Assembly (NCBI GenBank): GCA_018335655.1
Contig: JAGXRX010000037.1
Span: forward strand, 1 to 42,838
Source of the DNA: Erysipelothrix sp.
GTDB lineage: Bacteria > Bacillota_I > Bacilli_A > Erysipelotrichales > Erysipelotrichaceae
Direction of reading: 5' to 3'
DNA: 42,838 nucleotides
Of this stretch, positions 1 to 21,208 are shown in pieces. The position numbers and the translations under genes are program-made. The notes below the pieces were generated by a model, which was not told where the DNA came from, made no database searches, and worked only from the letters and a program-made list of their open reading frames with translations. Every line of letters starts with the position of its first letter. Positions within the stretch are counted from its first letter, which is position 1.

Positions 1-330
1 CAACTGGCATGTCGAAATATTCAACTACTTTGATAAAAGGCTCACTAATGCTTATACGGAGTCAATTAACAGCATTATTAGGCAGGTAGAGCGAATGGGC
101 AGAGGTTACTCGTTTGATGCCTTACGAGCCAAAATCCTTTTCAATGAGAAGCTCCATAAAAAGCGTAAGCCAGGATTTAATTCAAGTGCTTTCAATAAAG
201 CTATGTTATACGATACTTTCAATTGGTATGAAGTGAATGATCACGACATTACAGACAACTTTGGTGTCGATTTTTCCACACTTATTAAGAATTTGGAGAA
301 GGGTGATTTATAAGCCCTTTTCCACCATAA
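1..330 (+). mobile_element. Right end of an ISL3-family insertion sequence (partial)
   Basis: The window opens inside the transposase of an ISL3-like element, and the element must end shortly after the transposase stop at 313. The kinase-like reading frame on the other strand loses its family-like sequence over the same stretch (about 310-335), so the junction lies there. The exact terminal inverted repeat cannot be fixed because the left end is outside the window. Confidence 0.6.
2..313 (+). CDS. ISL3-family transposase, C-terminal fragment
   Basis: The frame is open from base 2 and has no start in the window, so this is the last ~103 codons of a larger gene. It reads NWHVEIFNYFDKRLTNAYTE, then SINSIIRQVERMGRGYSFDA. 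This is the conserved C-terminal end of the DDE_Tnp_ISL3 domain, where the last catalytic Glu sits in the T-NAYTES-IN segment. ISL3 transposases cut and paste DNA by a DDE mechanism. It faces the truncated kinase gene tail to tail and overlaps its reading frame, which is what insertion into that gene would produce. Whether the rest of the element is intact cannot be seen. Confidence 0.8.
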   Translation, partial: NWHVEIFNYFDKRLTNAYTESINSIIRQVERMGRGYSFDALRAKILFNEKLHKKRKPGFNSSAFNKAMLYDTFNWYEVNDHDITDNFGVDFSTLIKNLEKGDL

Positions 331-647
331 AATCCGAATACCCTAATTTTATTGGGAAATGCTTGTATAAGTTCATAGGCAAAATCAGGTTGTATATGAA
401 CTCCTTCGATTAAATAATTTTTCTTGAGTCCTGACAATGACTTAATCATGCCATACAAATATGGTTTTAGTGCATGACTAACAGTGATATCGCTCTTATT
501 GATATCAATAGATAATTGATCATTACCATAATGTAACATCATCATAATCAGGTCTGTTGAAATGACTCTCATATAATGTGTTTTGATGATGTCATCAGCG
601 ATAAGGGATTTTCCTGATTTAGCTATACCCGAAAGAATATATATCAT
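285..647 (-). pseudogene. P-loop kinase-like protein, 3' end lost to the ISL3 element
   Basis: The preferred start is the second ATG (647), because GGAG lies 5-8 bases before it. The protein begins with a nucleotide-binding P-loop, GIAKSGKS, near residues 7-14, followed by DLIM and a later IEGVHI strand. This resembles small adenylate-kinase-like or 2-phosphoglycerate-kinase-like P-loop enzymes. Only about 110 residues look genuine. The last ~10 codons run into the insertion sequence and overlap the transposase gene, so the enzyme lacks its C-terminal half. The substrate cannot be told. It is probably inactive. Confidence 0.55.
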
Positions 648-916
648 GTGCTTCTCCATTCAATATTTTGAAATAGTTAATATAGAATTCATGTTTTACT
701 AAACAAGTAATGACTGAACTTGATAAATTTTTGCATTTAATAATGTTATTTTAGCATATTGAGAAGATTTGACTTAATATTCTCTAATTTTCTTATTCAT
801 ATGTTAGTTCTAGTTTTAGTTTTAACCCTTGTTTCTTCTTTCCAATCCTAATTTTCTTGAACTTATTTTGCGTTGAATTAATTTATGATAAAATTACATA
901 GTCGGGGGGCAACCAT

Positions 917-1645
917 ATGCAATCAAAAACATTAATCATAATCATTGGATTGATATTAGTTATATTTTCGATTTCTCAACATAAGAATCAATGGTATGTG
1001 ACTACACAATCACCTCAAGGTGCACCAATTGTTGACAATGTTTTTTCGAGTGGAGCATCTGCTAATATGGTATTAGACCATTTATTCCAACGTCATGGTC
1101 AATTTCCTAATCTTCATATTCTTCATATGCAGGAAATAAAACTGGGGGCAACCACAGTATACATCACTCATTTTCAGCTCAATGGTGATTATGTTTATGA
1201 TTCTTTTAACGATACCACAACTTTAACAACTCGAACTGCAATGCTCATTGATGGAAGTCTACCAAAAAATAGCTTTGGTATCATTGGAATGAATGTGGAT
1301 GCTTCACGTTTTTCGTGTAACTACCGGTTGAAAGACTATGGACTAACTGCAAGTTATGAATCTTCAAATCAAGAATCATTTTCAAAACCTTTTAATCAAT
1401 CTTTCAAGGGAGAAGGAAATTTGATTAGTATGACTTTTCTTACTGATATTCTCATTCAACAAGGTTTTGACGATTTTGAGAGTGTCGGTGTTAAAGAAGT
1501 TTATGCTTATCAAACTGTGACTTGTGAGGGTATGAATAATATCAGTTCTTTAACTACTTTCTATGATCACGTCCCTTATAGTTTATTTATGCTAACTAAA
1601 AAGCGAGTTATGACCCATATATCTACTATTCAAACTTATCATTGA
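917..1645 (+). CDS. Hypothetical protein with N-terminal membrane anchor
   Basis: A 242-residue protein preceded by a strong GGGGGG ribosome site. Residues ~5-21 (TLIIIIGLILVIFSISQ) form a hydrophobic signal or anchor. The rest is polar and probably lies outside the membrane, with two Cys residues (FSCNYR, VTCEGM) that could pair. I do not recognise a family. The gene stands alone between the disrupted kinase and the first ssrA-like terminator copy at 1671, which would stop its transcript. It may belong to the same accessory region as its neighbours. Confidence 0.55.
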   Translation: MQSKTLIIIIGLILVIFSISQHKNQWYVTTQSPQGAPIVDNVFSSGASANMVLDHLFQRHGQFPNLHILHMQEIKLGATTVYITHFQLNGDYVYDSFNDTTTLTTRTAMLIDGSLPKNSFGIIGMNVDASRFSCNYRLKDYGLTASYESSNQESFSKPFNQSFKGEGNLISMTFLTDILIQQGFDDFESVGVKEVYAYQTVTCEGMNNISSLTTFYDHVPYSLFMLTKKRVMTHISTIQTYH

Positions 1646-1670
1646 ATTCCTAGAAGATAGTTTATATTTA

Positions 1671-1721
1671 AAGCAAACAACAACCGCCTTACAGCGGTTG
1701 TTTTGCATTTTGGTGGAGGTG
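1671..1721. repeat. Copy 1 of ssrA 3' end plus terminator (probable attachment-site scar)
   Basis: The block from AAGCAAACAA to TGGTGGAGGTG repeats the sequence just past and including the last ~11 bases of ssrA (6894-6944), with essentially one mismatch. It includes the hairpin ACCGCC-TTACA-GCGGT and the acceptor-stem end TGGTGGAGGTG, and then diverges. A copy of a tmRNA 3' end away from the tmRNA gene is the usual mark left by an element integrating there. It also serves as a terminator for the gene ending at 1645. Confidence 0.75.
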
Positions 1722-1923
1722 TATCTTACTTAATCTTACCTTGTAACAAAAATATTACCGATATTTATAAGAAAAATATAAGAGACGTCCATTCTCATAT
1801 ACTTTAAAGAGCATTAATAAAGTGGATTCATATTACTACGTTTGCTACATTCAATTTAATAATTAACATTGAAACAAATAGCTTAAGTGATTTTCATGTT
1901 ATTATATTATATGGTTTGAATCA

Positions 1924-1992
1924 GAATTTCATCGATTATTATTCCAGAATTTCATTGACTATAATTGCCGAATTTCATTGACTATTCTATAA
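1924..1992 (+). repeat. Three 23-bp tandem repeats over the ATPase promoter
   Basis: Units start at 1924, 1947 and 1970, exactly 23 bases apart. Each begins GAATTTCAT; the second and third share GAATTTCATTGACTAT, while the first has two changes. They overlap the promoter of the DUF4143 ATPase. Iterated sites of this kind usually bind a regulator; the ligand is unknown. Confidence 0.7.
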
Positions 1993-1993
1993 T
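1965..1993 (+). promoter_or_regulatory. Promoter of DUF4143 ATPase gene 1
   Basis: TTGCCG (1965-1970), a 17-base spacer and a perfect TATAAT (1988-1993) lie 28 bases before the gene start. The third 23-bp repeat fills the spacer, so a protein bound there should block RNA polymerase. Confidence 0.6.
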
Positions 1994-2020
1994 GGGAGCT
2001 ATAATTAATATGAGGACAAT

Positions 2021-3289
2021 ATGATGAGCAAAACCTATCTTAAAAGAGTTATTGATCAAAAACTTTCTCTTTATCTGCAAACATTTGGAGCAGTATTAAT
2101 TGAAGGTCCAAAATGGTGTGGCAAAACAACTACAGCCAGTATCTATGCTAAAAGTACTCTAAAAATGCAAGACCCCTCACAATTGAGGAATAATTTACAG
2201 ATTGCTGATGCAGCACCTCAGCTGTTACTAAAAGGTGCCACTCCACGTTTAATCGATGAATGGCAAATCGCACCTGTTTTATGGAATACGATTCGTTCTT
2301 ATATCGATGAGTCACAGGCTTCCGGCCAATTCATATTAACAGGATCTACAACTCCCCCAAATGATTCCAATAGACATACAGGAACCGGAAGATTTGGACG
2401 TTTATTAATGCGACCAATGAGTCTTTTTGAATCACTTGAGTCGACAGGTGAAGTTTCACTTAAGAGTCTATTCGAGAAAGCACCGTTTAATCCATGTAAA
2501 TCAAACTTAAACATAGAAATGATTGCTCAGCTCATATGCCGCGGTGGATGGCCACAATCTATAGATAAACCAGAAGATTCCGCATTATTAATGGCAAGAG
2601 AATATGTCAAGGCTATTACAAATGAAGAAATAAACACGCCTAATGGAGTTGTCAGAGATTCAATCAGAGTTCGATCTTTTCTTAGGGCATATGCTAGAAG
2701 CATCCAGACTCTGACAAAAAATACAACTTTACTTGAAGATATGAAAGCAAACGATATTTCAATTGACGCCGCAACCCTGTATGCATACTTAAGTGCTTTA
2801 CAGAAAATATTCGTAATTGAGGAAACCCCCGCATGGTCACCGAATATTAGATCAAGAACAGCCATTAGAACATCTAATAAAAAAGGGGTTGTAGATCCTT
2901 CAATAGCTGCTGCTGTTTTAGGACAGACAAAATCATCTTTATTGAAAGATTTTGAATTGTTCGGTCTTTTATTTGAGTCATTATGTATTCGCGACTTAAG
3001 AATATACAGTGATGATATTGATGGAATGGTAAGTCACTATCGTGATGATTATGGTCTTGAATGTGATGCAGTGATTCATTTAAATGACGGAAGATATGCA
3101 CTTATAGAAATAAAACTAGGTGGAAAAGAGGAGGATTCTGCAGCTAAACACCTCCTTCAGTTGGAGTCACTACTATTATCTAAGGGTTATCCATTGCCCC
3201 AATTCAAAATGATATTAACCGGAGGAGAACTTGGTTATCTTCGTAATGATGGTGTAATGGTTGTTCCAATTGGATGTTTAAAACCATAG
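2021..3289 (+). CDS. AAA_14 / DUF4143 (COG1373) ATPase 1
   Basis: 422 residues, the usual length for this family. Walker A is GPKWCGKTT (~29-37), the Walker B-like segment is RLIDEWQ (~75-81), and sensor 1 is ILTGSTT. A winged-helix-like middle is followed by the C-terminal DUF4143 domain, which has the restriction-nuclease-like pattern ECDAVIH then ALIEIKLG (D...ExK). The family is widespread, binds ATP and has no firmly known role; the C-terminal fold suggests DNA contact. The start has GAGG upstream; a second ATG follows directly. It sits with a DUF6933 gene inside a module bounded by two ssrA-end copies and has an iterated operator. It differs clearly in sequence from the other two copies in this window, so it is not a recent duplicate. 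Confidence 0.88.
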   Translation: MMSKTYLKRVIDQKLSLYLQTFGAVLIEGPKWCGKTTTASIYAKSTLKMQDPSQLRNNLQIADAAPQLLLKGATPRLIDEWQIAPVLWNTIRSYIDESQASGQFILTGSTTPPNDSNRHTGTGRFGRLLMRPMSLFESLESTGEVSLKSLFEKAPFNPCKSNLNIEMIAQLICRGGWPQSIDKPEDSALLMAREYVKAITNEEINTPNGVVRDSIRVRSFLRAYARSIQTLTKNTTLLEDMKANDISIDAATLYAYLSALQKIFVIEETPAWSPNIRSRTAIRTSNKKGVVDPSIAAAVLGQTKSSLLKDFELFGLLFESLCIRDLRIYSDDIDGMVSHYRDDYGLECDAVIHLNDGRYALIEIKLGGKEEDSAAKHLLQLESLLLSKGYPLPQFKMILTGGELGYLRNDGVMVVPIGCLKP

Positions 3290-3378
3290 CTTTCATGATA
3301 ATCAGTGGCAATATTTTTCTATACCTAAATCAAAACTAGATCAAAAAGTTGAATAAAATGAAGATTGGAGCAATAATT

Positions 3379-3978
3379 ATGATTCTATACGCAACTAAGC
3401 AAACAATCGATAGATACAAAATAAAAATGCCTCATCAAATGCACCATGTTTCTGAACTCGCTTCTAACCAAATTCTAAAAGAACAACAAGGAGATGCCCT
3501 TCTGGAGTGGGGTCTGAAATTGTTCTATTTTGATCGTCGAAAATGTATACAAGCCATGAATTTTGCGAGCAAACTTACTATTTTCCTTTTTGACGTGAAA
3601 ATTGATGACATGGAGTATGTTGCAAATAGCATAGCTCTCTATTTGATGGACTTGTACAAAACCGACAAAAGAATAGTATTTTTACTCGAGAAATACTTTT
3701 CACAATATTCACTCTGTACTTATTCGAAGCTTACTAATCGAAGCATTATTTCGTCATTAAATCGAAATCAATTGGATTTTGCTAATGATGGATATGCATT
3801 CTTCAATTACATAGAAAATGGCATTCTGCAAACTAGAAAAATAAATTATGATGTCAATTTTCATTGGTTAGTAACTCAATCAATTAACGGGAAGACAGAT
3901 TATCATTATTCTGGTGAACTTTTTAGAGCGTTGTTGCTTGATCGATACAAAAACGCATTACAGAGTGATAAAACGTGA
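3379..3978 (+). CDS. DUF6933 family protein
   Basis: The start at 3379 is chosen because GGAG lies 9 bases upstream; a longer frame opens at 3349. The ~199-residue product begins MILYATKQTIDRYK and contains LFYFDRRKCI and a late NRSIISSLN segment. This is the pattern of DUF6933 proteins, which are soluble and uncharacterised. It follows the ATPase with ~90 bases between, so the two may be co-transcribed. Its stop codon lies only three bases before the second ssrA-end copy, whose hairpin would end the transcript. No catalytic motif is visible. Confidence 0.6.
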   Translation: MILYATKQTIDRYKIKMPHQMHHVSELASNQILKEQQGDALLEWGLKLFYFDRRKCIQAMNFASKLTIFLFDVKIDDMEYVANSIALYLMDLYKTDKRIVFLLEKYFSQYSLCTYSKLTNRSIISSLNRNQLDFANDGYAFFNYIENGILQTRKINYDVNFHWLVTQSINGKTDYHYSGELFRALLLDRYKNALQSDKT

Positions 3979-3980
3979 TA

Positions 3981-4038
3981 AAGCAAACAAAAACCGCCTT
4001 ACAGCAGTTGTTTTGTATTTTGGTGGAGGTGAGGCGTG
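3981..4038. repeat. Copy 2 of ssrA 3' end plus terminator (probable attachment-site scar)
   Basis: The same block as at 1671 and 6894, again from AAGCAAACAA to TGGTGGAGGTG. Here the likeness to ssrA continues further (GAGGCGTGTCGG against GAGGAGAGTCGA in the true gene), so part of the tmRNA T-arm is preserved in degraded form. One stem base has changed (GCAGTT for GCGGTT), weakening the hairpin. It separates the two ATPase-bearing modules. Confidence 0.75.
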
Positions 4039-4259
4039 TCGGTCTTATCACTTCCTCATTAAGTTCAACCAATTGCACAAATATTCAGTAATTTCTCAAT
4101 TTATTAACTCTATTGATTATTCTCTAAAAATATAAGGTCTACCAATTTCATTATTTTTAACTGTTTTTTGCTGGTCTTAACCTATCTTTTTCAGAAATCT
4201 CTAAGACTTGGTATAATAATTATGTTGGATTTATATACATATCAGAAATGGGGCTCTAT

Positions 4260-5296
4260 ATGCTATCGATCATATATGATGAAATTTCAACACGTTTACA
4301 TCAAATTGAGTTTAAAACAATTTGGAATAATTTCAACCTCTATAAATTTGCCGTTTATAATGATTCAGAATGTTTCTTTGATGGCAGATATATATCAAAA
4401 ACAGATGAGTTTTTAGCTAATACATCGATTCTCTATCAAGGAGAGTTCATTGCTATCTGGAAAATTAACGAACCATTTGAGTCAATAGATTTTGACGAAC
4501 TAACCTCAAAAATTGTGCATGAAATGTTCCATGCCTTTCAACAACAATCACATGAAAACCGTTATCCCAATGAAATGGAAGCATTAATGCAATACACTTA
4601 TGATAGAACCAATCTATCCATAAAGCTGCAAGAAGCGCAATATTTGAATTCCTTTTTTATAAGTGGAAATAGGAGATCATTTGATGATTTTTTGAAATGC
4701 CGCAAACATCGACTTCAAACATTCCCATATGAAACGACTTACGAGTCACAAGTTGAACAGATAGAGGGAACTGCACAATATGTTGAACTATTAGCACTCG
4801 AACAATTGAATGAATCTAAAGGTCAGAGTGCTTGGAAACGTTTGTTTGAAAATACTCTAAATCCAAAGCTTACTTCCCTATCCGAGTAATATCATATGCG
4901 ATAGGTGCAACTGTTTTACGTTGTCTTTCGATGGGCGAGCTTTCTAGAATAACAAAGCCTTCATCTATCCCATTTTCTTTAACACTTTTAGAAGAAGTTG
5001 AGACAGAAGACATTAAACTTTCAGTTAACTCTCTTATAGACCATTACCTTGATACTTATAACACACGAACAAACCAAATCATTCAAGCAGCAATAATAAA
5101 AGATGACTGTTTACTTGAAGGTGAATATCCGCTTCTGGGGATAAATATTTATGATGCGCGGTGTCAAGGCCAATATCTAACCTCAACGTATTTCGTTATG
5201 GTGGAAGATCAAGGGGTTTCACGTGTCTTCAATGGGGATTTTGTTATAGAACTTAATGAAAACAACAAGGTAATACGATTGCTTAATCAAGCATAA
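4260..5296 (+). pseudogene. Zinc-metallopeptidase-like protein, broken by a frameshift
   Basis: Two frames, 4260-4889 and 4886-5296, give one continuous protein of ~345 residues if a single base is added near 4884 (TATCCGAG read as TATCCCGAG). The first part has the zinc-binding signature HEMFHAFQQ and a downstream EGTAQY helix that could supply the third ligand. The second part starts VISYAIGATV, a helix typical after the active site of such peptidases, followed by a small beta-rich tail. I do not recognise the exact family. The start at 4260 is weakly supported (GGGG upstream). The stop lies well inside the fold, so the product is probably inactive unless the shift is a sequencing error or is read through. 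Confidence 0.6.
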
Positions 5297-5469
5297 AAGA
5301 GACTTTACACATCGAAAATTAAAAGACGATTACAAATGACTCAATAAAAGAGTATTTCATGATACTGTTTCATATTTTTTCATTTTTCAGATTTGTCATT
5401 GAAGGAGAATAACCTAATTAACAATATGGGACTAGTTTTGATATTCACGTATATCACCATTCCATAAAT

Positions 5470-6723
5470 CTATAAATCTAAACTTTTTTCATTCAGTAAA
5501 AAATCTAGTAAACCAATTCTTAAATAACCATTTTCATCTTTAGTCGCAAGTTCTTTATTTCTAAGTACAATAATCTTTTTAAATGAATCATTTAAGCTAT
5601 TAAGTGATTTTAGTTCTTGTTTTTCTTTCTCTTCAGAATCCATTCTAAAAGCAGATTGAATATAATACTTTTGATCGCCTTTGTTACATACGAAATCAAT
5701 CTCTAGTTGTTTCCTAATACTTTTCCCTTCATTGTTTTTCGTGTTTAGTGTGACAACACCGATGTCCACAGAATATCCTCTTATTCTAAGCTCATTATAG
5801 ATAATATTCTCCATTATGTGATTCTCCTCCATCTGTCGAAAATTTAATCTAGCATTCCTTAATCCAATGTCAACGAAATAGTACTTCGAAGGTGTATTGA
5901 TGTACTTTTTTCCTTTTATATCATACCTGAGAGAATTATGAACTAAAAATGAATCTACAAAATAGTCCAAATAATTCTTAATTGTATGATTCGATATTTC
6001 AGTTTTCTTAACACTTTTAAAAGTATCAGATAATTTACTTGGATTGGTCAATGAGCCTATTGAGGAAGCAAGAAAATTGATTAATTCACCTAGCTCTGCA
6101 TCATTTCTAATTTCATATCTGTTGATAATGTCATTCAAATAAGTCTCACTAAACAAATTGATTAAAAAATCTTTCTTTTGCTCGGAACTTTTCATAAACA
6201 CAATATTTGGCAGTCCCCCATACAACATATACTCTTTCCACGCATCCTCTTTACTACCATTAAAAACAGATAAAAACTCAGAGAAGCTAAGCGGATAAAC
6301 ATGGATTTGGTCTCCTCTCCCCCTAAATTCGGTAATAATGTCGCTTGAAAGAAACTTTGCATTGCTTCCAGTGACATAAATGTCGCAATTTTTAATATGC
6401 ATTAACCCATTCAAAACATCTTCAAAATTTCCGACTAATTGGACTTCGTCCAGAAGGACATAGTACATATCTTCATCTTTTACTGTATCTTTAACAAAAC
6501 CATACAAGTAATCCGGTTTTCTAAACTCTTTATTCCCCCAATCATCTAAGGCTATTCTAATAATGTGATCATCCTTTATCCCCTCTTGAATAAGGTAATT
6601 ATAGAATATATTAAATAATAAATAGGATTTCCCACATCTACGGATACCTGTTATGACTTTCACGAGATGATTGTGTTTGCGTTGAATGATTTTATTTAGA
6701 TATATTTCTCGATTAATATTCAT
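5470..6723 (-). CDS. AAA_14 / DUF4143 (COG1373) ATPase 2
   Basis: 417 residues. Walker A is GIRRCGKSY (~26-34), Walker B is VLLDEVQ (~88-94), and sensor 1 is VTGSNAK. The middle helical/winged region is followed by DUF4143, with ENIIYNELRIRGYSV and the acidic EIDFVCNK strand of the nuclease-like fold. The short KNNEGKSIRKQ insertion lies just before that strand. The gene lies in the second ssrA-bounded module and is transcribed towards the broken peptidase gene. Its promoter is flanked by two identical palindromes (6740, 6815). Function is unknown for the family; proposals include DNA-linked ATPase or toxin/antitoxin-like roles. No clear terminator is seen downstream. Confidence 0.88.
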   Translation of the reverse strand: MNINREIYLNKIIQRKHNHLVKVITGIRRCGKSYLLFNIFYNYLIQEGIKDDHIIRIALDDWGNKEFRKPDYLYGFVKDTVKDEDMYYVLLDEVQLVGNFEDVLNGLMHIKNCDIYVTGSNAKFLSSDIITEFRGRGDQIHVYPLSFSEFLSVFNGSKEDAWKEYMLYGGLPNIVFMKSSEQKKDFLINLFSETYLNDIINRYEIRNDAELGELINFLASSIGSLTNPSKLSDTFKSVKKTEISNHTIKNYLDYFVDSFLVHNSLRYDIKGKKYINTPSKYYFVDIGLRNARLNFRQMEENHIMENIIYNELRIRGYSVDIGVVTLNTKNNEGKSIRKQLEIDFVCNKGDQKYYIQSAFRMDSEEKEKQELKSLNSLNDSFKKIIVLRNKELATKDENGYLRIGLLDFLLNEKSLDL

Positions 6724-6739
6724 ATCTATTTCCTTTTTT

Positions 6740-6753
6740 TGCGTATTTACGCA
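6740..6753. promoter_or_regulatory. Palindrome TGCGTATTTACGCA, proximal operator of ATPase 2
   Basis: A 14-base palindrome with perfect six-base arms, followed on the + strand by seven T. It lies between the promoter and the gene start, where a bound protein would block transcription. An identical copy is at 6815. The T run also allows a weak terminator reading on the + strand. Confidence 0.6.
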
Positions 6754-6768
6754 TTTTTTTGTAATTAA

Positions 6769-6779
6769 ATTATACCATG
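6769..6779 (-). promoter_or_regulatory. Extended -10 promoter of ATPase 2
   Basis: On the minus strand TGGTATAAT forms an extended -10 element 46 bases before the start codon. There is no good -35 hexamer, which suits the extended -10 type. Palindromes lie on both sides. Confidence 0.5.
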
Positions 6780-6814
6780 TTTTTTAGATGTTTTGATTTT
6801 ATATTTCAATATTA

Positions 6815-6828
6815 TGCGTATTTACGCA
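6815..6828. promoter_or_regulatory. Palindrome TGCGTATTTACGCA, distal operator of ATPase 2
   Basis: An exact copy of the palindrome at 6740, 75 bases away (about seven helical turns), again followed by seven T and G. The pair brackets the promoter, an arrangement that allows repression by DNA looping. Confidence 0.6.
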
Positions 6829-6896
6829 TTTTTTTGCAATAGATTTCAATTAATTTCAATTACCCGATAATGACCCTTCATAAAACATTTAAATAG

Positions 6897-6930
6897 CAAA
6901 CAAAAACCGCCTTACAGCGGTTGTTTTGCA
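6897..6930 (-). terminator. Terminator of ssrA
   Basis: On the minus strand AACCGC-TGTAA-GGCGGTT is followed by TTTG and further T, a few bases past the tmRNA 3' end. It can act in both directions. This hairpin is part of the block that recurs at 1671 and 3981. Confidence 0.75.
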
Positions 6931-6933
6931 TTT

Positions 6934-7282
6934 TGGTGGAGGTGAGGAGAGTCGAACTCCTGTCCAAGAAGTGTCTCACATTCAAAGTTCTACAGTTTAG
7001 TCATATCGCTCTAATCACCTCTTAAGGACATGACAAGCAAGAGATGATGAACTCACTGGGATTGTCGGGAACACGCGCTGAGCCAACTAGTGAACCTTAT
7101 TCTTTGTTTTTGATACACGTTCATAAGCCAAAGACCAACCTATGAGGTGCACGCTGATAGCAGTATTTAGCTAATTAAGCAGCGAAAGAAAGTCTGTTTC
7201 CAGATATTTTTTGTTGGCCTTTAGGTAGCCACACCACTGCCCTTTGAATCAAACAACGACCTGTCGAAACCATGACACCCCC
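6934..7282 (-). ncRNA. ssrA: tmRNA (transfer-messenger RNA)
   Basis: The 349-nt RNA begins GGGGGTGTCATGGTTTCGACA and ends with a T-arm (GGAGTTCGACTCTCC) and CACCTCC-ACCA. The 7-bp acceptor stem GGGGGUG/CACCUCC pairs fully with one G-U, and CCA is encoded. It rescues stalled ribosomes with SmpB, whose gene is ~4.5 kb away in this window. The tag frame ends GCT GCT TAA. By analogy with Bacillus and Staphylococcus, where the resume codon follows 'ACU', the tag is probably GNRLSFAA, read from GGA. This is short; the start of the tag is inferred, while the Ala-Ala end is seen. Its 3' end is the probable integration target for the modules at lower coordinates. Confidence 0.93.
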
Positions 7283-8370: not shown

Positions 8371-10235
8371 TGTTTAGAAAAATATTCGTCTTATCATTGT
8401 TTTGGCTTGTATTGTGGATTAATCCTTTACATGCCAATCAAGACATCGTCGTCAATAATCATCATATTGATGTTCTCGTAAAAGAGAACGGACAGTATGA
8501 TTTTAAGCATACTCTGAATGTTACTTTCTCTTCTCCATATTATGGAATATTCGTTAATATCCCTCAAGCATATCAAATGAACTGGGATATTGATGGGGAA
8601 TCATTTGTTAGAGAGTATCTCTTCCCTCTTACAAATATCTCAATTGAAGCTACTCCTGGAATTATCGAGCGTTATCGTCAAGGTGTTAGATTATTGCTTG
8701 GTGAAGAAGGTGTCTATGTAAATGGACCTCAAACTTATGTTTACTCCTATACCATGAATACCCGAGATCTTAGACTTGATGGAAGACAACGTTTCTATTT
8801 AAACTTTATTGGAAGTGAATGGGAAATCCCAACTGAAAAGGTTTCCTTCAATGTTCAGTTTGAACAAAGCATTATTGGCTTAACTCCTAGTTTCTATGCT
8901 GGGGCCTTTAATACAAATACTGCCGTTTTCCCGCAACTTACCATTACATCGAATTCAATCTCAGGAACATTTGATCAATATCTCAATCCATTTGAAGCAT
9001 TTACGATTGATATGAATGTTCCAACTACATTCTTTAAGTTTACACCTCGTGTGGACTACACTTTTATTTCAATTCTATTCTCGTTAGCTTTGTTCATCTT
9101 GTTAGTTCTTGTATACCAAAAACATGGTAAAGATGATCCAGTCACTGAAGTTGTTGGTTGGAATCCTCCTAAAGGTTTATCCTCAGCCATGGTCGGTTAT
9201 GTCTTTGATGGGTTTGTAGATAATAAAGATGTCTTATCTTTAATTATCTATTGGGCAAGTCAAGGGTATATGACGATTGAAGAGATTGATAAGAACACTG
9301 TTAAGTTTACGAAATTAAAAGAACTTGATGAAGGCATTAAAGCTGAGAAAATCATGTTTGATGAGATGTTTAGAAATCGAGATAATGTGACAACAGCACA
9401 ATTGAAGTACAAATTCTATGATTCAATTGTTGCTGCACGATCAAATATTCTATCTCACTTCAAACATAATCCAGACATGAAGATTTATTCTTCAAAATCA
9501 ATTTTCTATCAATATCTATTTGCTGCATTATTATCATTCCCATTAGCGATCAATGTGTTTATAAGTGTATTTCAAACAACGTTATCCTTTGAAGCAGTTA
9601 TCTTTAGTATAATGCTGTTCATAGGTTCATTCATCTTACATATTATTAATGTTGTTATGGCTCGTCGTTCACCAAGTTATAAAACTGCGAGTAAGATTGG
9701 TAGAAACCTATTATTTATTATTGGTTCATTCATTATTACGATGTTCAGCTTACTCATTGTCTCAATGCATGAAGGCTTAACTATTTATGTCATCATGAAT
9801 GGTGTCTTATTCTTCCTAGGACTATGGCTCAACAACAAAATGGATAAACGAACACCACAAGGTAATGCTTGGTTAGGAGAAATCTTAGGTTTCAAGCACT
9901 TTATTGAAGTGGCTGAGAAAGCACGTTTGGAAATGCTTGTTCGTGAGAACCCAAGTTACTTCTATCATATTCTTCCTTATGCTTATGTCTTAAATGTTTC
10001 TGATGTTTGGTCTAAGCAATTTGAATCCATTGCGATTGATGCACCTTCTTGGTACATTGGTCCATCCTATACTAATTCCTACGTCATGATGCGGTCATTG
10101 AATCGTACCCTTGGCACCATGAATCAAACCATGACTGTTCCTGCTCCTTCCAAAGGAAAAGGCGGTGGTGGATTTGGTGGCGGAGGCTTCTCCGGTGGTG
10201 GATTTGGTGGTGGCGGTGGTGGTGGTTGGAAGTAA
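8370..10235 (+). CDS. DUF2207 domain membrane protein with Gly-rich tail
   Basis: 621 residues. Signal peptide 1-22 ending LHA; an extracellular DUF2207 beta domain (~25-220) starting with NHHIDVLVKENGQYDF; a membrane helix (~228-250); a cytoplasmic domain with LSLIIYWASQGYMTIEE, typical of the family; then four further membrane helices (~380-490). The tail is almost pure Gly with Phe/Ser (GGGGFGGGGFSGGGFGGGG) and ends GWK. DUF2207 proteins of this layout, with LemA partners, are common in Bacillota, and their function is unknown; roles in envelope quality control have been suggested. The Gly-rich tail is a family habit also seen in TPM-domain proteins. Confidence 0.9.
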   Translation: MFRKIFVLSLFWLVLWINPLHANQDIVVNNHHIDVLVKENGQYDFKHTLNVTFSSPYYGIFVNIPQAYQMNWDIDGESFVREYLFPLTNISIEATPGIIERYRQGVRLLLGEEGVYVNGPQTYVYSYTMNTRDLRLDGRQRFYLNFIGSEWEIPTEKVSFNVQFEQSIIGLTPSFYAGAFNTNTAVFPQLTITSNSISGTFDQYLNPFEAFTIDMNVPTTFFKFTPRVDYTFISILFSLALFILLVLVYQKHGKDDPVTEVVGWNPPKGLSSAMVGYVFDGFVDNKDVLSLIIYWASQGYMTIEEIDKNTVKFTKLKELDEGIKAEKIMFDEMFRNRDNVTTAQLKYKFYDSIVAARSNILSHFKHNPDMKIYSSKSIFYQYLFAALLSFPLAINVFISVFQTTLSFEAVIFSIMLFIGSFILHIINVVMARRSPSYKTASKIGRNLLFIIGSFIITMFSLLIVSMHEGLTIYVIMNGVLFFLGLWLNNKMDKRTPQGNAWLGEILGFKHFIEVAEKARLEMLVRENPSYFYHILPYAYVLNVSDVWSKQFESIAIDAPSWYIGPSYTNSYVMMRSLNRTLGTMNQTMTVPAPSKGKGGGGFGGGGFSGGGFGGGGGGGWK

Positions 10236-10257
10236 CCCCATTACTAAATACTGATTT

Positions 10258-10290
10258 AAAAAATCTCTACAATTAAGTGGAGATTTTTTA
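10258..10290. terminator. Bidirectional terminator between DUF2207 gene and ATPase 3
   Basis: AAAATCTC and GGAGATTTTT arms with a short loop, an A run on one side and a T run on the other, placed between two converging genes. Confidence 0.75.
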
Positions 10291-10309
10291 ATATAACTAA
10301 GGTAATGAT

Positions 10310-11581
10310 TTAATCCCTTCTCTTTAACAACCACTTCCATGAAGGAATAACTTGTATTGTAATGTCGTCTACTGTTATGGTGTCTTCTTGATCATAAGTA
10401 ATGATTATATTATTCTTAATTTTCATGAATTTTGAAATCTTAACAAGTGCATTAACTTCTCTTTCCTTTGTTAATAAATCATTTAATGAGTAACAAGCTT
10501 GAATCGCAGTGGATTTAGATGGAATCACAAAGTCCACTTCAACATTATCCTGATAATAGTAAACATTTTCTTGACCCTCGTTGCGAATAAGTTCAAGTGC
10601 AATGCAATTCTCAAGTAGTGCTGGATTAGCATCAATTAGAAATAGATTCAAAAGTCCAGTATCCATGAAGTAATATTTTGGAGTAGAGTTTTTATCAACA
10701 AATTTTGCCCCAAGATTACTTAGTGAGAATAGTAGATAAGACTCTTTACAGTATTCTATGTATTGAATAATTGTGGACTTTCCTACTTTATAACCAACAG
10801 ATTGAACAATATGTAGTAACCTAGAATACGAAATCGGTTGTCTTACAGATTCAGCAACTTTCTTCAACAGCACCTCTAAACCGCTTTTATTTGATATTGA
10901 ATATCTTGAAATAATGTCTCCAAGAAAAATCTTATTATATAGATTGCTTAAATAGTCTCTTTTATTGATTAACTCTGTAATCTCAGGAAATCCTCCAAAG
11001 TGTAAATACTCATCAAGTAATCCGAGTAGTATTGCTCGTGATTCAATTGAGTAAAATGTGCTATTTGTAATACGTACTTGTTTTGCACTTAAAAATTCAT
11101 CATAACTATATGGATAGACCAGAATAGCTAGATATCTACCTCCTAGAGTTCTTTCCATCTCATGACTAAGCATTTTTGAATTGCTTCCAGTAATGTAAAT
11201 AGTTCTTTTTTCATCCGCCATGCGACGAGCAAATTTCTCCCAACCACTAATGTTTTGAATTTCGTCAAGGAAGAAAATAGGTTCTTTTTGAAATAAGGTG
11301 TGATGGGCCTCAATAAGTAAATCGAAGTCATTAATATCAAAACCAATCAATCTTTCATCTTCAAAGTTTATATAAAGAAACTCATCCCACTCATGCCCCT
11401 TTTTAACCAGTTCATTCATGACTTGATATAATAAGAAAGATTTACCACTTCTTCTTATACCTGTGTAGATAACTGATAAATGATCAATTGCTTTTGTTTC
11501 TCTTGTTTTTATACTTAATTTTTTAATATTTCGAATACGATCAACAATTATTCTCATTATTATTTGTTTATCAATAGCCAT
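10310..11581 (-). CDS. AAA_14 / DUF4143 (COG1373) ATPase 3
   Basis: 423 residues. Walker A is GIRRSGKSF (~41-49), Walker B is FFLDEIQ, and sensor 1 is ITGSNSKML. The C-terminal DUF4143 domain has ENCIALELIRNEGQENVYYY and VEVDFVIPSK, the nuclease-like acidic strands. It is nearer to ATPase 2 than to ATPase 1 in motif wording, though plainly diverged. AGGAG precedes the start. It lies between the DUF2207 operon (converging, shared terminator) and smpB (same strand, ~156 bases away behind its own terminator), so it is a separate unit with its own promoter and three phased palindromes. The family's role is unknown. Confidence 0.88.
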   Translation of the reverse strand: MAIDKQIIMRIIVDRIRNIKKLSIKTRETKAIDHLSVIYTGIRRSGKSFLLYQVMNELVKKGHEWDEFLYINFEDERLIGFDINDFDLLIEAHHTLFQKEPIFFLDEIQNISGWEKFARRMADEKRTIYITGSNSKMLSHEMERTLGGRYLAILVYPYSYDEFLSAKQVRITNSTFYSIESRAILLGLLDEYLHFGGFPEITELINKRDYLSNLYNKIFLGDIISRYSISNKSGLEVLLKKVAESVRQPISYSRLLHIVQSVGYKVGKSTIIQYIEYCKESYLLFSLSNLGAKFVDKNSTPKYYFMDTGLLNLFLIDANPALLENCIALELIRNEGQENVYYYQDNVEVDFVIPSKSTAIQACYSLNDLLTKEREVNALVKISKFMKIKNNIIITYDQEDTITVDDITIQVIPSWKWLLKRRD

Positions 11582-11626
11582 TTGTGTTACTCCTATTGTG
11601 AGTGCAGAACCGTTTCAGGGTTGTTC

Positions 11627-11711
11627 TGTCCTGCGTGTAAGACAATAATAACATTATTTTGTCCTGTGCACAAGACAAAATGTGCATATTTTCGTCTTAT
11701 ACATAAGACGA
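11627..11711. promoter_or_regulatory. Three palindromic operators at exact 33-bp spacing before ATPase 3
   Basis: Palindrome cores GTCCTGCGTGTAAGAC (11628), GTCCTGTGCACAAGAC (11661) and GTCTTATACATAAGAC (11694) share the half-site GTCyT...ArGAC and start exactly 33 bases apart, about three helical turns, so all face the same side of the helix. The middle one extends to a 24-base near-palindrome with TTTTGTC/GACAAAA arms. A TATTAT -10 box (minus strand, 11650-11645) lies between the first and second, and the second covers the -35 position. This is an array for repression by a cooperatively binding protein. Confidence 0.75.
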
Positions 11712-11727
11712 CAATCTAAACAAAGGA

Positions 11728-20954: not shown

Positions 20955-21208
20955 AAAGACTATCCCTCTAAAAAGAGGCGATAGTCTCGCGGTTCCACTC
21001 TTTGTTTAACTAATCTAGTTGATTAGTCCTTAACTCGGATACTTTCATATCCTAACGCTATAACAGGCGTTCCTGAATCCCTCTACATTATCGAAGGATT
21101 AGCTCAAAGATGCATTCGCAATGCTTTCACTTAAGATTCTTTCACCCGATGAATCTCTCTCTAAAAGTTTCGACACTGTTACTATTTCTTATCACAGCAT
21201 TTATTCAC
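20955..21208 (-). promoter_or_regulatory. T-box riboswitch, probably tRNA-Cys specific
   Basis: The T-box sequence GAGTGGAACCGCG (21000-20988) is followed by the terminator GACTATC...GATAGTC-TTTTTT. Stem I features include AGAGAGAGATTC, the GGTGAAAG loop region and the specifier segment GAA-TGC-ATC-TTTGAG, which aligns with the usual GAA-NNN-ACC-TTTGAG and places codon TGC (Cys) at 21114-21112. The antiterminator bulge reads TGGA, which pairs with UCCA, and tRNA-Cys has U before CCA. Both readings agree on cysteine; glycine tRNA shares the U but not the codon. When uncharged tRNA binds, the antiterminator forms and the transporter operon is transcribed. Confidence 0.85.
20958..20986 (-). terminator. 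T-box regulated terminator
   Basis: GACTATC/GATAGTC outer arms with CCTCT/AGAGG inner arms and an A-rich loop, followed on the minus strand by TTTTTTATTT. It competes with the antiterminator containing the T-box sequence. Confidence 0.85.

Follow-up and report, generated by a model that had tools for sequence, protein, structure and literature searches.

Introduction

Almost every bacterium possesses the transfer-messenger RNA (tmRNA) gene ssrA, into which elements frequently insert. Here we describe the region adjoining the 3' end of ssrA in Erysipelothrix sp., within a stretch of 42,838 nt (assembly GCA_018335655.1, contig JAGXRX010000037.1; hereafter the window) whose first base is also the first base of assembled contig 37. 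Three direct repeats of the ssrA 3' end delimit two small intervals at this site, which are probably cassettes without an integrase, acquired by site-specific insertion, arranged as two tandem units and resembling cis-mobilizable elements (CIMEs).

In Dehalococcoides, tandem ssrA-bounded genomic islands (ssrA-GIs) occur with and without an integration module, and a CIME nature was suggested for those lacking it (PMC3146451). The window likewise holds tandem units bounded by ssrA 3'-end repeats. However, while part of the Dehalococcoides islands carry a conserved integration module including the serine recombinase DsiB, the window units are devoid of recombinase, as is every array unit examined here, and unit size is mostly ~1–4 kb. 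In addition, the core is the acceptor-stem/CCA end and not the T-loop, a terminator accompanies each boundary, the host family is unrelated, and the cargo comprises ATPase/defence-like, toxin-antitoxin, metal and sugar genes. CIMEs themselves were described for ICESt1-related elements of Streptococcus, as cited in PMC3146451. In common with them, the window units are flanked by att-type direct repeats at a specific site and carry no integrase or transfer genes, and tandem accretion would be expected; here, however, mobilization by a partner is only proposed, and no partner integrative and conjugative element (ICE) or integrative and mobilizable element (IME) was found in the genome of the window.

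Additive flexible genomic islands of small cassettes are known from Alteromonas (PMC5217437) and from Methylophilaceae (PMC10872708), the latter with tRNA-tail repeats. There too, repeats of the last ~20 nt of an RNA gene precede or separate small cassettes of variable size and content, whereas the target is here ssrA, each boundary has a terminator and often a conserved arm, and one unit was transferred between genera. A further likeness is to integron cassette arrays without integrase, named CALINs in PMC11389934, in which small cassettes are separated by one type of site, alike within a genome, and have no enzyme of their own; the sites described here are instead mimics of the ssrA tail and not attC, and the target is ssrA and not attI, a comparison made without an attC/IntI search. 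The hallmark genes of phage satellites of the phage-inducible chromosomal island (PICI) type (integrase, replication, packaging, capsid interference) were found in neither window unit. Relative to these precedents the locus is a variant: its units are very small, those examined have no recombinase, every boundary includes a terminator and many also an arm, and one unit was transferred between genera.

Results

Three copies of the ssrA 3' end bound two small units

The target gene and the three repeat copies are located as follows.

6934..7282, minus strand: ssrA (tmRNA), target of the insertions, whose final 11 nt, CACCTCCACCA on the minus strand, form the core common to all copies (ARAGORN, Rfam RF00023)
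6894..6944, minus strand: copy A, ssrA 3' core (6934–6944) and intrinsic terminator, left edge of unit 2 (alignment, pattern search)
3981..4031, minus strand: copy B, core (4021–4031) and terminator, boundary between unit 2 and unit 1 (alignment, pattern search)
1671..1721, minus strand: copy C, core (1711–1721) and terminator, distal edge of the array (alignment, pattern search); its homologue in the congener G001 is the distal edge of the unit of that genome

The initial annotation had reported a block of ~50 bases at 1671, 3981 and 6894, in the same orientation and with few mismatches, and both alignment and pattern search confirmed it. The block, 50 bp long at 1672–1721, 3982–4031 and 6895–6944, consists of the last 11 nt of ssrA and of the terminator that follows. 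Its 38-bp heart was retrieved at 1684–1721 and 6907–6944 (0 mismatches each) and at 3994–4031 (2 mismatches), with 0 matches in dinucleotide shuffles. BLAST of the block against its own genome recovered the other copies at 1672–1721 (98%) and 3982–4041 (93%) and no further one, except for a 19-bp chance match. An intrinsic terminator was recognised by reading in every copy.

The two units and their content are listed below.

4032..6893: unit 2, between copies A and B (2913 bp core to core); contains a DUF4143 ATPase and a broken gene and has an attachment arm at its distal end; G001 lacks it at the corresponding position
5470..6723, minus strand: AAA_14 and DUF4143 ATPase, 417 aa (Pfam PF13173/PF13635; PADLOC PDC-S01 candidate)
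4248..5296, plus strand: a single gene that a frame change divides into open reading frames (ORFs) of 213 aa and 121 aa (tblastn with the homologues of G124 and G004, matching in two frames)
4032..4058, minus strand: attachment arm of unit 2, with AAGTGATAAGACCGACACGCCT preceding the core; common to arms in G030, G162 and G102 (profile from genus g26 only)
1722..3980: unit 1, with a DUF4143 ATPase and a DUF6933 protein; 2310 bp core to core, the same unit (2316 bp) being at ssrA of G119, in another genus
3349..3978, plus strand: DUF6933 protein, 209 aa (family searches; PADLOC PDC-S63 candidate)
2021..3289, plus strand: AAA_14 and DUF4143 ATPase, 422 aa (family searches; PADLOC PDC-S01 candidate)
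1722..1750, minus strand: putative arm at the distal end of unit 1, with CAAGGTAAGATTAAGTAAGATA preceding the core; resembles the G119 and G138 arms weakly (19/30 identical to G119)

Here and below, G-numbers designate the genomes of relatives (G000 being that of the window) and g-numbers the genera of the family. ORF family searches bore out the earlier description of intervals of about 2.3 and 2.9 kb, each with one DUF4143 ATPase and no integrase; indeed, no integrase, recombinase, transposase or transfer gene was detected among the ORFs of either unit with Pfam, PHROGs, NCBIfam and PADLOC, and none of the PF00589 matches of the genome lay on the contig of the window. The two ATPases are just 23% identical. 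The frame change in the split gene of unit 2 falls near 4860–4890, full homologues elsewhere being single open frames of ~354–388 aa. In unit 1, the stop codon of the DUF6933 gene directly adjoins copy B. The terminator at the end of unit 2 opposite its arm carries AAATGCAAAACAACCGC. The PADLOC matches (PDC-S01, PDC-S63) may be taken as a lead toward defence and not as evidence of a defence function.

The same junction in related genomes

In the congener G001, both the ssrA side (86% nucleotide identity) and the far side (82.6%) are conserved, and a different unit of 2952 bp lies between them, encoding an AAA_21 ATPase and a RloB protein, for which AbiLi and AbiLii gave the highest scores. Empty sites were found in genus g8, where G150 and G066 show ssrA, its terminator and then a conserved 299-aa gene. 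In G119, of the same genus, the 2316-bp unit corresponding to unit 1 is inserted exactly at the core, and its removal in silico left a sequence whose alignment with G150 runs directly through the junction (88.9% over 1537 bp, 1 gap). Between the window and G119 the ATPase of unit 1 is 93% and the DUF6933 protein 86% identical in amino acids, against a background of 77% (nucleotides) for tmRNA, 78% (amino acids) for LemA, 69% (amino acids) for SmpB and 39% for the neighbouring membrane protein. Since the proteins of unit 1 are far more alike than tmRNA and the neighbouring proteins, unit 1 is, as judged from these sequence comparisons, a horizontally transferred unit that moved between genera into the same ssrA site. 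The variable content, the empty sites and the presence of unit 1 in another genus support the earlier proposal of att scars at the ssrA 3' end, left by accretion remnants or by small units moved by a helper.

The DUF4143 and DUF6933 gene pair was also observed away from ssrA, at 1033–3036 of locus L148 (G162, contig 122), with no core copy nearby.

Arrays and attachment arms across the family

Core repeats of this kind were present in nine genomes (G000, G001, G119, G138, G121, G100, G102, G162 and G030) of five genera (g1, g8, g20, g21 and g26), which are minimum counts, since numerous contigs stop close to ssrA. Besides the window, arrays were seen in G121, G102, G030, G138 and G162. Unit sizes were mostly 0.9–4.4 kb, with one unit of 10.5 kb. 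Five clear sites were recognised on contig 10 of G030, in an array holding the unit-1 gene pair, the 10.5-kb sugar operon unit, a lipoprotein-like unit and an AlbA_2 gene; because this array and ssrA are on different contigs, we can only infer that they are linked. The same sugar operon and AlbA_2 units are found in G162 directly at ssrA, in another order, and the units common to the two genomes differ in divergence (82% and 97%). The cargo of G102 comprises metal-related genes (by reading), a helix-turn-helix (HTH) protein and a RhuM/Fic pair, while G100 has a 1-kb unit with a Phd/YefM-like antitoxin, and G121 three units whose arms are alike for ~90 bp beside different cargo. In G138, phage-looking peptidase/lysis-like genes were noted upstream of the first core site (L065, contig 48, reverse strand 182–4405), a hint that a prophage may occupy this site too.

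The boundaries of G030, G162 and G102 consist of an arm of ~27 bp, usually ending in CACGCCT, followed by core and terminator, for a total of ~80 bp with unrelated sequence on both sides. An arm-core profile was built on ten sites of genus g26 only and searched over 1.04 Mb of fetched DNA. In the window it gave one convincing site, at the middle copy (4021–4053, minus strand, E 2.5e-7), and an arm-only version of the profile matched 4032–4053 (E 0.0012); the g26-only profile also matched a site in G138, of genus g8. The arm of unit 2 at the middle copy reads GATAAGACCGACACGCCT. The initial annotation had taken the extra bases of this copy for degraded T-arm sequence, a view not supported by our results: as they are alike to arms found beside unrelated cargo in another genus, they more likely represent a unit-borne attachment arm. 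The arm of the distal window copy differs from that of the middle copy and shows a weak likeness to the G119 and G138 arms, although a two-sequence profile of the latter gave no match with it. In G001 and G121, proximal and distal terminators differ, and only the 11-nt core and a few bases are common to both ends.

A further arm-core-like site (E 3.7e-5) was seen in G030 (L143, contig 20, minus strand 9723–9756), near genes that include an AAA ATPase resembling DUF4143 proteins. Pattern matches in G203 and G217 were rejected as att sites, the match stopping short of the block formed by CCA and terminator.

Search for a recombinase

Tyrosine integrases abut ssrA in the relatives G072, G125 and G172. 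In G030 the gene is instead abutted by a large serine recombinase with Resolvase, Recombinase and zinc-ribbon domains, 80% identical to one on contig 250 of G001. The sequence following ssrA in the G030 element is TTTATATCCCTGTGTAA, and the arms of the G030 array (TTACACAGGGATAAG...) match it over 13 bp in inverted orientation (reverse complement), a match reached in 2 of 100,000 shuffles and whose dyad centre, by counting bases, falls at the boundary between arm and core. In this genus the arms resemble the left attP half of the serine recombinase, as would be seen if that site were divided between the two junctions of the element. G030 and G162 were the only genomes with a match between arms and a recombinase element abutting ssrA. 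For other arms and half-sites, inverted matches (9–10 bp) were discarded as too short, since ~0.2% of shuffles reached 10 bp or more, a figure not corrected for how many comparisons were made. A phage carrier was also discarded, as two unit genes, the att block and the arm had no match in IMG/VR contigs.

Contig 250 of G001 begins (L017, positions 1–33) with an ssrA 3' end that leads into the serine-recombinase element. Because this tail is unlike the ssrA of G001 itself, the contig may derive from contamination or from a second strain.

Neighbouring features of the window

Beyond the array, the following flank was recognised.

346..1670: chromosomal flank, with a 242-aa ORF at 917–1645 and a truncated P-loop kinase; syntenic in G001 (window 346–1721 against L013 10219–11607)

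An ISL3 transposase end at the start of the contig (window 2–659) abuts the P-loop kinase-like gene, which seems to be truncated by this insertion since it codes for 124 aa here and for 206 aa in G001. A third AAA_14/DUF4143 gene (10310–11581, minus strand; region 10238–11718), without an ssrA core copy, lies between a glycine-rich membrane protein gene and smpB; G001 lacks it, its matches to the two flanks lying only ~170 bp apart. The tag peptide predicted by ARAGORN, ANKKYLETDFLSLLN (window 7175–7201), looks out of frame; the minus strand reads GNRLSFAA followed by a stop, which is the tag given by ARAGORN for the relative G002. A T-box leader (Rfam RF00230) was identified at 20971–21204 on the minus strand.

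Discussion

The exact boundaries, the restored ssrA and the empty sites are most simply explained by site-specific recombination at the core. Units could instead move mainly by homologous recombination, with circular or linear DNA crossing over at the ~50-bp core-terminator block and no site-specific recombinase involved. Such a route would fit a block of 50–60 bp that is near-identical within a genome, the resemblance of terminators within genomes and the lack of a recombinase half-site at most proximal unit ends. However, the ends of the G001 and G121 units have in common only the 11-nt core and a few bases, too short for efficient homologous exchange, and conserved arms not derived from ssrA recur next to the core beside unrelated cargo across genera, so that we regard this explanation as unlikely. 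We give similarly little credence to the idea that the units are dead remnants of integrase-bearing islands which lost the integrase after insertion and were never mobilized as integrase-less units. The broken gene of unit 2, the genome G012, which holds only the DUF6933 gene of unit 1, and the insertion of integrase-bearing elements at ssrA in relatives all speak for it; but unit 1, integrase-less and of near-identical length, is at ssrA in G119 and again within the G030 array between arm-core sites, and identical independent loss of an integrase in three genera is improbable. As for a dispersed terminator-like repeat unrelated to integration, to which the terminator read in each copy might point, copies scattered over the genome with constant content between them would be expected. 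Instead, only three copies exist in the genome, all at this locus, the content between them varies among relatives and empty sites exist; this explanation was rejected and seems very improbable.

Several observations weigh against a site-specifically acquired, CIME-like array. The arm of unit 1 has no secure match among the other arms; most units show at their proximal end a plain host-like terminator with no second recombinase half-site; and terminators are alike within a genome, which homologous recombination could also yield. No recombinase linked to the two window units was found, and a search for PF07508 in the genome of the window gave no match, so that the serine recombinase was not found there. 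Among 272 genomes of the family and 315 of the order this enzyme was present only in G001 and G030, and we rejected it as a general helper. A dedicated resident integrase common to array genomes was likewise rejected, as among the integrases of seven genomes compared only Xer-type ones were shared, a weak negative because the script chose a neighbouring ORF at some loci. Moreover, most of the genomes compared are drafts or metagenome-assembled genomes, with contig breaks at several arrays.

Under site-specific acquisition, each insertion would restore ssrA, put the unit's own terminator beside the gene and push the previous terminator outward. The enzyme must come from elsewhere, presumably from a different element that also targets ssrA (a phage, IME or ICE). 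Serine integrases act on attP and attB for integration and on attL and attR for excision; by these standard reactions, any boundary of matching type farther downstream could serve as the second site when an element excises. The likeliest route would thus be accretion, in which a visiting element integrates beside the array, excises through a farther boundary of the same type, taking one or more units along, and drops them behind on leaving the next host. Accretion explains the plain proximal terminators, which simple insertion does not. The helper step is proposed from the single 13-bp inverted match in the genus of G030 and not from the genome of the window. We also entertain, much more tentatively, an integron-like cassette system with ssrA as its platform, in which ~80-bp arm-core-terminator sites would delimit enzyme-less cassettes of 1–3 kb. 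These would be reshuffled and handed on from genus to genus, and elements visiting the site would provide the serine recombinases, and perhaps others, that move them.

The ssrA junction behaves as a plug-in site, at which relatives carry other blocks or none. A simple search rule follows, namely to look for repeats of ssrA tail plus terminator downstream of ssrA. The locus also connects enzyme-less islands with one particular serine recombinase in a way that can be tested. If enzyme-less cassettes accumulate at ssrA and travel with visiting elements, this would provide defence-like, toxin-antitoxin, metal and sugar genes with a route of spread that needs neither integrons nor integrases of their own.

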